DNA from: Acinetobacter tianfuensis
GTDB lineage: Bacteria; Pseudomonadota; Gammaproteobacteria; Pseudomonadales; Moraxellaceae
Assembly (NCBI RefSeq): GCF_003611465.1
Contig: NZ_RAXV01000002.1
Location: 1-64,000 of the forward strand
Length of the DNA: 64,000 nucleotides
Reading direction: 5' to 3'
The notes beneath the pieces are model-generated. The model searched no databases, was not told the DNA's origin, and saw only the letters and a list, made by a program, of their open reading frames with translations. How positions within the stretch are numbered: the first letter of the stretch is position 1; each line of letters opens with the position of its first letter. The position numbers and the translations under genes were made by a program. Of the stretch, positions 37,613 to 43,032 are shown one piece after another.

Positions 37613-38704
37613 TTAAGCTGTGTACTGCTTAAGAAAATCCGCCATCAATTTTGCTGCCCATGAATGTGTTTCCCACACACCTTCATAGAATCCGCAATGA
37701 CTGCCTTTTTTTGTTGTCACTACGGCAATATTCGGCATATTTTGAATTGTGGCCTTATAAGGCTCTAAATTTTTAATATGACAAACCGGATCATCTTCCG
37801 CATTTAATATTAAAAGCGGTATTTTAATATTATCAAAGACATAAATTGGATTAGTGGCTTGATCATACTCTTCATAGCTGCTGTAGCCCGCCATTTCAAA
37901 ATAGACTTTCTCAAACTGCTGCAAGGTTTTCACCTTCATCACTTTTTCCAGCGAAACTGTACTTTCCCACATTTGGCGGTAGGGTTCAATAAAGTTCTGA
38001 AACAGCTTCTGTGTCATCATTTTGCTATAAAAAGGATGCACATTTTGAAATCCAGCAGCGGTATCATAGCCTGGGCATAAAGCAAAAGCGGCTTTAAATG
38101 GAGTATCCGAGCCTGCTTCACCCAAATAGCGCACCAGCAAGCCAGTACCTGCAGATGAACCTACTGCATACAGTTCAGACTGCGGTAATTTTTCTTGAAC
38201 ATATGCCAGCTGTTCCCGTAAATCAGCCACAGAACCAAATAGATTCATCTGGGCAACTGGCATTGGAAGCTTAGCATGTCCACGGCGTAAACAAAGTGCT
38301 ATTCGCCAGCCTGTATACTGATGCAGATCTCTGACCAGCTCACGCATACTTTCGGGCGTACCCGTTATAGTATGCAGCATAACAATAGTTGGCGTATCTT
38401 CCGGCAAGTCCAGCCCTAGCCAAGCAATGGCTGTAACCCCTCCATCCTGCATAGGCAATTGATCAATACGCTCATACTGCTGACGAATGCGGCGTTTTTT
38501 GATCAAATCAAAATACAGCAAATGCAGATGTGTACTAGACAGCCATGGTGTTGGCCTGTACTTTTGATTCAGCTGAGGCAATTGCATTAAAATATTGTAC
38601 AGCGCACCTTGCGGCTGTGCATAAATGACAGGCTGTTCCGCTCCAGTTGCTTTATCAAGCAGCTGCTGCGAAATCAGCGTCAATTTATCTGCAAATACAC
38701 TCAT
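37613..38704 (-). CDS. YheT-like alpha/beta hydrolase
   Basis: 363 residues of the YheT/EMB8 alpha/beta-hydrolase group. Segments: LLYFDLIKKRRIRQ, TPTIVMLHTITGTPESMREL with the oxyanion region, CLRRGHAKLP, the nucleophile elbow AVGSSAGTGLL (Ser in GSSAG), LILNAEDDPVC for the acid and KKGSHCGF for the histidine. The usual family segment HGLEGS is here HTITGT, a mild change near the oxyanion hole. Intracellular esterase of unknown substrate. GAGAGAC precedes the ATG. Confidence 0.85.
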   Translation of the reverse strand: MSVFADKLTLISQQLLDKATGAEQPVIYAQPQGALYNILMQLPQLNQKYRPTPWLSSTHLHLLYFDLIKKRRIRQQYERIDQLPMQDGGVTAIAWLGLDLPEDTPTIVMLHTITGTPESMRELVRDLHQYTGWRIALCLRRGHAKLPMPVAQMNLFGSVADLREQLAYVQEKLPQSELYAVGSSAGTGLLVRYLGEAGSDTPFKAAFALCPGYDTAAGFQNVHPFYSKMMTQKLFQNFIEPYRQMWESTVSLEKVMKVKTLQQFEKVYFEMAGYSSYEEYDQATNPIYVFDNIKIPLLILNAEDDPVCHIKNLEPYKATIQNMPNIAVVTTKKGSHCGFYEGVWETHSWAAKLMADFLKQYTA

Positions 38705-38785: not shown

Positions 38786-39193
38786 TTATTTAGCCTGAAA
38801 TGCCGCCATACGTTCACCCATTTTCACAGCTAAAGCTTCCAGCCCACTCTTCGGACGCAGCATCACTTCAAAATCTATAATTTGGCCCTGTTCATTAAAT
38901 TGGATCATATCAATCCCCTTTAACTTTTTCTCACCTACATTGGCAGAAAATTCAAGTACCGCATTTAAGCCATCTTCAGTATAAAATTCACGGTGATACG
39001 TAAAGTTTTCAAAAATTTGAATGACATTGTTCAAAATAAAAGTTACCGCTGGCTTACCCAGATATGGATTAAACGCCACTGGGGAGCGAAACACGACATC
39101 CTCTGCCAATAGCTCATTTAAAATATTCATATCACGTGTACTGAGCATTTCGTGCCAACGCGCAACAGATTTCTTTGTTGTTTCAATGGTCAT
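38786..39193 (-). CDS. NTF2-like (SnoaL) protein
   Basis: 135 residues of the cone-shaped NTF2/SnoaL fold: an N-terminal helix (KSVARWHEMLSTRDMNILNELLAEDVVFRSP shortened here in naming), FTYHREFYTEDGLNAVLEFSA strands and IDMIQFNEQGQIIDFEVMLR. Family members are small enzymes or binding proteins for hydrophobic ligands, and no catalytic residues can be assigned. AAGGATACAAA precedes the ATG. It lies downstream of the fadH-type reductase on the same strand with a pair of hairpins between, so partial co-transcription is possible. Confidence 0.85.
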   Translation of the reverse strand: MTIETTKKSVARWHEMLSTRDMNILNELLAEDVVFRSPVAFNPYLGKPAVTFILNNVIQIFENFTYHREFYTEDGLNAVLEFSANVGEKKLKGIDMIQFNEQGQIIDFEVMLRPKSGLEALAVKMGERMAAFQAK

Positions 39194-39291: not shown

Positions 39292-41325
<2,034 letters not shown>

Positions 41326-41405
41326 TTAGCGGGCTTATTCTGCTAGCTGTTTTTTTAGTTGCACTGCAAACCAAGCGATTTAAACCATTTAAAATGCACA
41401 AAATT

Positions 41406-41461
41406 TGCAACTTGTTGCATATATTTATATTCGAGTTTTGTTTTTTGTGCAACTTGTTGCA
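41406..41461. promoter_or_regulatory. Twin palindromic operators in fadH/padR gap
   Basis: TGCAACTTGTTGCA occurs twice, at 41406-41419 and 41448-41461. Each is a perfect inverted repeat (TGCAAC-TT-GTTGCA), and the two are 42 bases apart, four helical turns, so proteins bound to them would face the same side of DNA. The right-hand copy ends 21 bases before padR, the left-hand copy 90 bases before fadH. They are the obvious sites for the PadR protein. Confidence 0.75.
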
Positions 41462-41482
41462 TAATAAATTTAATAATTAAAT

Positions 41483-42046
41483 ATGACTGATGCGCCCATG
41501 TCACTTGCTCACGTACTATTAACCAGCCTTCTAGAAAAACCGAGTACCGGCATTGAACTTGCACGGCGCTTTGACCGCTCAATGGGATTTTTTTGGAGCT
41601 CAACACATCAGCAGATCTACCGCGAGCTGAACAGCATGCAGCAAAAAGGCTGGATTTCGACCATAGAAGAAGATGACAGCAACAGCCGAAAAAAAACCTA
41701 TAGAGTTGAATTACTTGGACGCACAGAGCTGGCAGATTGGATGGTCAAGCAAAGTCCGCCGGGGCAGCTGCGTGAAGACCTTATGGTGCGCCTGCGCGCA
41801 GAAGCGCAGCTTGGCGGAAATACTATGCTGCCAGAGCTGGAACGCCATTTACAGATACATCAAGATACCTTAAAACTGTATCAGTCTATGTATGCCAAAG
41901 ATTTTGCCGACCATGCCTACCATGACCGCACGCTATTTATTCATAAAATGATTTTGCAGCTTGGCATAGATTCTGAAAAAAGCTGGATTGACTGGCTGGA
42001 AACCATAATTCCTGCATTAAAAGCATTTGATTCCCCCAAGCAATAA
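41483..42046 (+). CDS. PadR-family regulator
   Basis: 187 residues. N-terminal winged helix of the PadR type at about 6-85: SLAHVLLTSLLEKPSTGIEL, the recognition region HQQIYRELNSMQQKGWI and the wing KKTYRVELLGR; then a long helical dimerisation domain (Vir_C-like; LRAEAQLGGNTMLPELERHL). PadR proteins repress genes until a small molecule binds. Divergence from fadH with twin palindromes in the gap suggests auto-regulation plus control of fadH. The ribosome-binding site is weak. The hydrolase gene 62 bases downstream may be in the same transcript. Confidence 0.9.
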   Translation: MTDAPMSLAHVLLTSLLEKPSTGIELARRFDRSMGFFWSSTHQQIYRELNSMQQKGWISTIEEDDSNSRKKTYRVELLGRTELADWMVKQSPPGQLREDLMVRLRAEAQLGGNTMLPELERHLQIHQDTLKLYQSMYAKDFADHAYHDRTLFIHKMILQLGIDSEKSWIDWLETIIPALKAFDSPKQ

Positions 42047-42108: not shown

Positions 42109-43032
42109 ATGCCGCACTATCAAATGCCAGATGGCGAGAAACTCTATGTACGCACTTATGGTTCAGGCCAGCCAGTGCTGGTGCTGTCTGGCCTAGGCAT
42201 GCAAAGCTGGCAGTGGCATCCTTTTTTATACCGCAGCCGCAAACAATTTGAATTTATTATCCCTGACTGGCGCGGGTTCGGCGGCTCAAAACAGTGCCAA
42301 ATTCCTGAGCTGGATGCAATTCCCAGCCATTGGCGTGATATCAGCAGCCTGATGCAGCAATTAAATCAGCCTGCGCTGCACGTGATTGCCTACTCTATGG
42401 GCGCAACTACCGCCATGCACGGCATGAAGTATGGTCAATTTGCACAGCAGATAAAAAGTTACTTGCATATAGATCAAACACCCAAAATTTCTGCAGACAC
42501 CGAATGGCCCTATGGCTTATTTGGCAACCGCCACCCTGAATTTATACAAATTCTGCAGCAAATTTCACAAGTGCTGCAGGATAATCCCACAGCCTTATAT
42601 ATGAATGACCTCAGTCAGCAAGCACGCAATCAGCTGCTGCATAGCTGGCTCGCTTTTATAGACCTGCAAGCCAGCAGCAAAACTGCACCGTTTTTTATCA
42701 AAGCGGCCTTAAGGCAGCCAAAACTGCAGCCGCATATCTTGCCTATTAAGCGTTTGGACTACCTATCTTGGTATATCAGCAATTATCTGCAGCATACCGA
42801 AGACTACCGCGATGCAGTCGCCGCCTTAACATGCCCTGCAACCTTCTTTATCGGGGAACAGTCTAAACTCTACCCAGCAGCAGGCCAGCACATTGTTGCT
42901 CAAAGCGCAGTAAATGCTGAATCCATTGTATTTCACAAATCAGGGCATACACCTTTACTCAGTGAACCCGTAAAGTTCAGCCAAGAAATTCAGCGTCACT
43001 TAACCCGTATATCCCAGCTGCAATCAGGATAA
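42109..43032 (+). CDS. Alpha/beta hydrolase
   Basis: 307 residues. A standard alpha/beta-hydrolase fold: PVLVLSGLGMQSWQWHPF with the oxyanion glycine, IIPDWRGFGGS, the nucleophile elbow IAYSMGATTAM, FIGEQSKLYP at the acid position and FHKSGHTPLLSEP with the catalytic histidine. The elbow is AYSMG rather than the strict GxSxG. Substrate unknown; the layout suggests a small lactone or ester hydrolase. AAGGACCAACC precedes the ATG, and it lies 62 bases after padR. Confidence 0.86.
   Translation: MPHYQMPDGEKLYVRTYGSGQPVLVLSGLGMQSWQWHPFLYRSRKQFEFIIPDWRGFGGSKQCQIPELDAIPSHWRDISSLMQQLNQPALHVIAYSMGATTAMHGMKYGQFAQQIKSYLHIDQTPKISADTEWPYGLFGNRHPEFIQILQQISQVLQDNPTALYMNDLSQQARNQLLHSWLAFIDLQASSKTAPFFIKAALRQPKLQPHILPIKRLDYLSWYISNYLQHTEDYRDAVAALTCPATFFIGEQSKLYPAAGQHIVAQSAVNAESIVFHKSGHTPLLSEPVKFSQEIQRHLTRISQLQSG

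Follow-up and report, generated by a model that had tools for sequence, protein, structure and literature searches.

Conserved near-palindromic sites at padR and two fadH genes are predicted operators of an AphA-type PadR regulator in Acinetobacter

Introduction

In Acinetobacter tianfuensis, a gene for a 2,4-dienoyl-CoA reductase (fadH, here fadH1) and a gene for a PadR-family regulator (padR) are divergently oriented, and the gap between them contains the same 14-bp word twice. This arrangement raises the question of whether the repeated words are operators, which protein recognises them and which genes they control. PadR-type local repressors (padR/padA-like) are small wHTH regulators with a divergent target and presumed autoregulation; classical PadR responds to phenolic acids and uses an operator of the ATGT-N8-ACAT type.

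A second reference point is the PadR-family protein AphA of Vibrio. Its ChIP-seq motif is described as ATGCAA-N4-TTGCAT, and in V. cholerae it is reported to repress by excluding RNA polymerase, to use both single and paired sites, with pairs bound co-operatively at two promoters, and to act both as activator and as repressor (PMC6855506). In V. parahaemolyticus, AphA is described as a repressor of its own gene (PMC3440409).

Results

A word search of the window, the whole stretch of 64,000 nucleotides analysed here, located two identical copies of TGCAACTTGTTGCA on the + strand of the fadH1/padR gap (sites 1 and 2, Table 1), with a start-to-start distance of 42 bp and 28 bp between them. The earlier note had described them as a pair of perfect palindromes. 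The two identical 14-bp words are indeed present, but their symmetry is not perfect: the reverse complement of the word is TGCAACAAGTTGCA, and 12 of its 14 positions are symmetric, forming 6-bp arms (TGCAAC and GTTGCA) around an asymmetric central TT. The genus consensus of site 2 (TTATGCAACATGTTGCATAA), taken from the 95 gaps in which the sites are 42 bp apart, reads as a fully symmetric 20-bp palindrome, and the copy in the window deviates from it.

Matches to TGCAACNNGTTGCA at all 12 positions were absent from 5000 dinucleotide shuffles of the gap; 139 of the shuffles contained a single match at 10 or more positions and 2 contained two such matches. The whole assembly (3,464,918 bases, 116 contigs) contains the pattern three times and its reversed control not at all; the expectation in 3.46 Mb is 0.17 from base composition and 0.5 from an order-2 Markov model, both models having been trained on the window. 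The third exact copy is located on a different contig, 24 bp upstream of the start of another fadH gene (fadH2). A search of the window allowing up to three mismatches returned no excess over chance (15 matches, 18.7 expected), so only near-exact matches are informative. Of two additional weaker sites (TGCAAYNNRTTGCA) in the A. tianfuensis genome, the first follows a transporter-like ORF, the second has no long ORF around it, and neither has a clear target.

Table 1. Genes, predicted operators and predicted promoters at the fadH1/padR locus (positions in the window)
Feature	Positions	Strand	Basis and placement
fadH1, 2,4-dienoyl-CoA reductase, predicted target	39292..41316	-	1ps9 match; Oxidored_FMN and Pyr_redox_2
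Site 1, predicted PadR operator	41406..41419	.	Exact word; site of at least 10/12 here in 128/135 gaps; just downstream of predicted fadH -10, over expected fadH start region
Predicted fadH promoter	41424..41452	-	-35 TTGCAC (41452-41447), 17 bp, -10 TATAAA (41429-41424); conserved block
Predicted padR promoter	41438..41465	+	Weak -35 TTGTTT (41438-41443), 16 bp, -10 CATAAT (41460-41465)
Site 2, predicted core PadR operator	41448..41461	.	Exact word; site of at least 10/12 here in 133/135 gaps; over predicted fadH -35 and predicted padR spacer/-10
padR, AphA-like PadR regulator	41498..42046	+	PF03551 and PF10400; 1yg2 match; conserved Met
Alpha/beta hydrolase behind padR	42109..43032	+	PF12697/PF00561

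The product of fadH1 aligned with the 2,4-dienoyl-CoA reductase 1ps9 over residues 3-672 (E 8.6e-291), and this similarity, together with its domain content, is that of a full-length FadH protein with predicted reductase activity; none of the 25 NCBIfam families listed, of 78, matched it above its cut-off. Downstream of fadH1, on its strand, lie genes for a SnoaL-like protein (38786-39193) and an alpha/beta hydrolase (37613-38704), which may share its transcript. On the other side, 129 of 136 Acinetobacter loci have a homologue of the alpha/beta hydrolase listed in Table 1 no more than 150 bp downstream of padR, and this gene is probably co-transcribed with padR. A GCYRGC element occurs in 119 of 135 loci in the initial 60 nt of the leader of fadH (window 41317-41376); in the window it reads GCTAGC and belongs to a terminator-like hairpin of the + strand.

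The ORF list places the padR start at an ATG at 41483; the Met6 codon at 41498, which is ATG in all 136 loci, is the likelier start. A Shine-Dalgarno-like sequence precedes fadH in 135/135 loci, and none was found within 18 nt of the conserved padR start in 127 of 135 (window 41462-41498). The padR product combines an N-terminal PadR wHTH domain (PF03551, 39.5 bits, cut-off 27) with a C-terminal Vir_act_alpha_C domain (PF10400, 67.7 bits, cut-off 22.4), and its closest solved structures are 8ioi (E 6.3e-27), AphA 1yg2 (E 1.3e-23) and 5x11 (E 8.1e-15). Its aligned identity to AphA is about one third. Residues 42-49 (HQQIYREL; HQQVYREL in AphA) are unchanged in the 136 proteins of the genus and belong to a recognition region, FWxA(S/T)HQQ(I/V)YREL, that the product shares with AphA, where the segment reads FWKASHQQVYREL. 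The two sites in the window agree with the AphA operator at 11 of 12 positions, and the genus consensus of site 2 fits it, a sequence match from which binding is predicted. By these sequence features the padR product is an AphA-type PadR regulator. We withhold the label AphA itself; the many targets of that protein have no counterpart among the visible ones here, since all three exact sites in the assembly are at padR/fadH genes.

The conservation of the gap was analysed in 149 Acinetobacter genomes. A FadH-family gene was detected in 142 and padR in 136, with no padR in any of the seven genomes lacking a FadH hit. All 136 padR loci were read, and fadH1 is divergent to padR in 135 of them. Two sites of at least 10/12 are present in 128 of these 135 gaps (both at 12/12 in 82), one site in 5 and none in 2 (L142 and L144, from G143 and G131). 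These counts ignore the relatedness of the 135 gaps. Clustering by protein at 85% identity gives 40 groups, with two sites in at least one member of 34 groups and only single sites in 5. The operator pair that the earlier note proposed for a divergent PadR, and whose absence from orthologous gaps it named as grounds for giving the proposal up, has survived this comparison as a predicted pair, with at least one site kept in 133 of 135 gaps.

Conservation among the 95 gaps spaced at 42 bp peaks over sites 1 and 2 and over the intervening promoter-like stretch, and drops outside. Among the 128 two-site gaps, 109 have spacings of 41 (14) or 42 bp (95), 10 fall off helical phase at 49 (8) or 50 bp (2), and 9 have spacings of 52 (2), 53 (5), 54 (1) or 55 bp (1). 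In the five one-site gaps (L070, L136, L137, L140, L145) the remaining site is always at the place of site 2. Given a spacing that ranges from 41 to 55 bp and gaps that have lost site 1, the looping suggested by the earlier note is not supported, and an argument from strict helical phasing was dropped, being contradicted by the 49-50 bp class. Co-operative binding to the two sites, also raised there, is possible by analogy, as AphA shows co-operativity at two promoters (PMC6855506).

The exceptions to the arrangement bear on the protein involved. G093, the single genome with padR and no adjacent fadH1, keeps a site before padR (TGCAACATCTTGCA) and has an exact site at fadH2. Against the association, no gap sites are present in G143 and G131, although padR has kept its recognition region unchanged there and lies next to fadH1; their gap is longer, at 321-322 bp. 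The unchanged region rules out an altered recognition region as the reason for this loss, and a takeover of the site by a nitronate-monooxygenase-family (NMO) gene was likewise ruled out, no site being present there.

The promoter elements of fadH and padR in Table 1 were picked by eye. Each -35 box matches TTGACA at 3 of 6 positions, and a consensus promoter scanner reported neither promoter. Its alternative, TTTGCA-16-TATATT on the + strand (41404-41431), scores at chance level; if this were the padR promoter, its -35 would be overlapped by site 1. In aligned examples, judged by eye, the distance from the -10 to site 2 is constant within about a base while site 1 shifts.

The DNA upstream of fadH2 was read in 62 padR-containing genomes, out of about 129 that by our own count have both genes. 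A site of at least 11/12 was found in 54 of the 62 (12/12 in 50, 11/12 in 4), and in 47 of the 54 pattern-found sites AAAGT, which probably ends a -10 element, precedes the site by 3-5 bp. The best match is 10/12 in three genomes, near the start in G103 and at distances of 129 bp in G143 and 206 bp in G131, and below 10/12 in five (G111, G042, G009, G114, G035). A convincing site is thus absent in 7 of the 62, and G103 has one of 10/12 only. In the padR-less genomes, a site was found upstream of fadH1 in 0 of 4 and upstream of fadH2 in 1 of 4; the latter genome, G030, is only 65% complete, so that padR may be merely missing from it. Exact sites occur in four padR-less genomes, G001, G020, G026 and G049, and all of them are inside coding frames. 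The gap and fadH2 sites share a C-to-T (or G-to-A) change in G031, G144 and G014. An argument from co-variation of half-sites was dropped, with ancestry uncontrolled and the gap site of G096 changed while its fadH2 site is not.

Across the 149 genomes, TGCAACWTGTTGCA gave 445 strand-hits and the reversed control 11. Outside the gap, padR-containing genomes have no exact strand-hit in 25 cases, one in 91 and two or three in 20, and single hits were assigned to fadH2 only where its upstream DNA had been read. In 10 of the 20 genomes with surplus hits, the same exact word forms an intergenic site 99-114 bp before an NMO gene (L155, L156, L157, L246-L252), and in G019 a hit lies 58 bp before another gene of that family. 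The first NMO gene has a counterpart at E 1e-60 or better in 15 of the 149 genomes, with the site in 10 and without it in G056, G093, G131, G143 and G016; it belongs to the Pfam family NMO and matches NCBIfam FabK below the cut-off. In 9 of the 20 genomes a surplus site falls within a coding frame. Seven of these are beside fabB (G034, G011, G016, G051, G065, G107, G120), where an exact site with an AT centre is found 362-363 bp upstream of the gene; given its position in the coding frame of the neighbouring gene, fabB was rejected as a target and the sites taken as a coding coincidence. The extra sites of G127 and G130, also inside coding frames, were rejected as regulatory.

The association of motif and regulator was followed into distant relatives, a set of 33 loci (6 plus the 27 best-scoring of 72 non-Acinetobacter matches, by our own count) whose PadR proteins are 25-43% identical. 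Up to 250 bp before the conserved start, TGCAA-N4-TTGCA is present at 9/10 or better in 25 of 33 (0.2 expected from mononucleotide shuffles) and exactly in 21 (0.01 expected), counts that are not independent because several of the genomes share a family or genus. Searches of flanks of about 1.5 kb found a fadH neighbour in 5 loci (L263 divergent; L280, L284, L286 and L288 in tandem) and no fadH hit in the other 28. Other neighbours include NMO-like genes in three loci (L034 on the same strand; L276 and L281 divergent), a KAS III gene in three, and a CrtI/carotenoid-isomerase-like FAD oxidoreductase, scoring below NCBIfam cut-offs, in ten (L271, L272, L274, L275, L277, L278, L279, L283, L287, L035); 12 of the 33 have none of these four neighbours. 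Since distant relatives mostly without an adjacent fadH carry the motif before their own padR-like gene, the motif follows padR.

Discussion

The comparative data define the operator words and their conservation, link them to padR, point to padR, fadH1 and fadH2 as the associated targets and place the gap sites over predicted promoter elements. With site 2 over the predicted core promoters of both divergent genes and site 1 over the predicted fadH start, repression combined with autoregulation is the best reading. We therefore consider it highly probable that the adjacent AphA-type PadR uses the two sites as operators and represses padR, fadH1 and the unlinked fadH2 until a metabolite releases it. 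The earlier suggestion that PadR is the switch for a dienoyl-CoA reductase becomes very probable given the conservation of the sites across orthologous gaps. That reading had overlooked the same site at fadH2, the AphA-type character of regulator and operator, and the overlap with predicted promoters.

We infer from these features that PadR binds the sites, that its effect is repressive and that it is autoregulatory in the cell. A PadR dimer would recognise approximately ATGCAAC-N2-GTTGCAT. At site 2 it would cover the fadH -35 together with the padR spacer and -10, so that one bound protein could silence both divergent promoters, and a second dimer on site 1 would cover the fadH start region and tighten repression. 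The same PadR would bind the third site, over the start region of fadH2. The outcome would be a small autoregulated regulon comprising two 2,4-dienoyl-CoA reductases, joined in one clade by the NMO/FabK-like flavoenzyme. The targets suggest that the releasing metabolite is an unsaturated acyl-CoA, most plausibly an unsaturated or 2,4-dienoyl acyl-CoA; the present analysis gives no pointer to aromatic acids as the cue.

Chance repetition in an A+T-rich gap would be compatible with the lack of excess in the three-mismatch search, but no gap shuffle contained an exact match, the sites are kept across the genus and a third copy lies at fadH2; because of this conservation, chance is already excluded for practical purposes. 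The motif might instead be read by another DNA-binding protein, with padR as a mere conserved neighbour. PadR binding here is a prediction, G143 and G131 have padR without sites, and the padR-less G030 keeps the fadH2 site, even if its incompleteness may account for the missing gene. Against this stand the presence of the motif upstream of padR in 25 of the 33 distant loci, a set in which 28 lack a fadH hit in their flanks, the site kept before padR in G093 without fadH1, the match of the motif to that described for the homologue AphA, and the general lack of a site at fadH in padR-less genomes, which together render another reader of the motif improbable.

A further alternative concerns the sign of regulation. 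AphA both activates and represses (PMC6855506), and the sign is unreadable from sequence, so that PadR could chiefly activate from these sites, or could activate one gene and repress another, like its Vibrio homologue. Such a role is unlikely, since site 2 overlies predicted core promoter elements while site 1 and the fadH2 site overlie predicted start regions, and operators in these positions usually block RNA polymerase.

Under PadR repression of padR, fadH1 and fadH2, the analysis yields a genus-wide and readily testable prediction for the control of Acinetobacter 2,4-dienoyl-CoA reductase. The relevance of this control is illustrated by A. baumannii, in which fadAB expression is reported to rise with arachidonic and docosahexaenoic acid and beta-oxidation to shield the cell against these host fatty acids (PMC6428749); the main text of that work does not contain the terms PadR, fadH or dienoyl. 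Extending the AphA operator to regulators that are often beside enzymes of unsaturated compounds also makes the ligand of this PadR type tractable. A bolder and rather doubtful extension, offered tentatively, is that the AphA-type PadRs of this order constitute an undescribed class of sensors of unsaturated or conjugated lipids, of whose stock Vibrio AphA would be a quorum-sensing offshoot. The homologues of relatives with the same operator adjoin fadH, NMO/FabK-like or CrtI-like polyene oxidoreductases, and if this extension held, the switch would in Acinetobacter govern both 2,4-dienoyl-CoA reductases and thereby polyunsaturated fatty acid breakdown, with the fatty acids of a host included.

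In the literature searched, which leaves most subscription journals outside and so provides no proof of absence, we found no link between PadR and fadH or dienoyl-CoA reductase, in line with the earlier note, which knew of none. Two apparent leads were discarded: in PMC12914303 and PMC12358481 the term PadR came from an author name in the references, and in the former fadH stood for FADH-dependent enzymes. The A. baumannii genes listed as contributing to fitness in mouse spleen include AB57_0172, which encodes a PadR-family regulator and is a possible counterpart of the fadH-adjacent padR (PMC6185781). Local PadR repressors that control a divergent gene are already known as a type of system, and as far as searched the padR/fadH regulon is new.

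Among known systems, FadR, PsrA and FadP resemble this regulator in controlling beta-oxidation genes, but are described as GntR or TetR proteins with larger regulons (PMC5343134, whose main text lacks the words PadR and fadH). The padR/padA-like systems share with it a small wHTH regulator beside a divergent target and presumed autoregulation, and differ in target and operator. AphA is similar in its two domains (structure 1yg2), in a near-identical recognition region, in its operator (ATGCAA-N4-TTGCAT, or ATATGCA-N6-TGCATAT) and in single or paired sites over core promoters and start sites, the promoters being predicted in the present case (PMC6855506, PMC3440409). As described, however, AphA serves quorum sensing and has numerous dispersed, degenerate sites, whereas the Acinetobacter padR product is associated with few, near-exact sites, located at the fadH genes and at its own gene.
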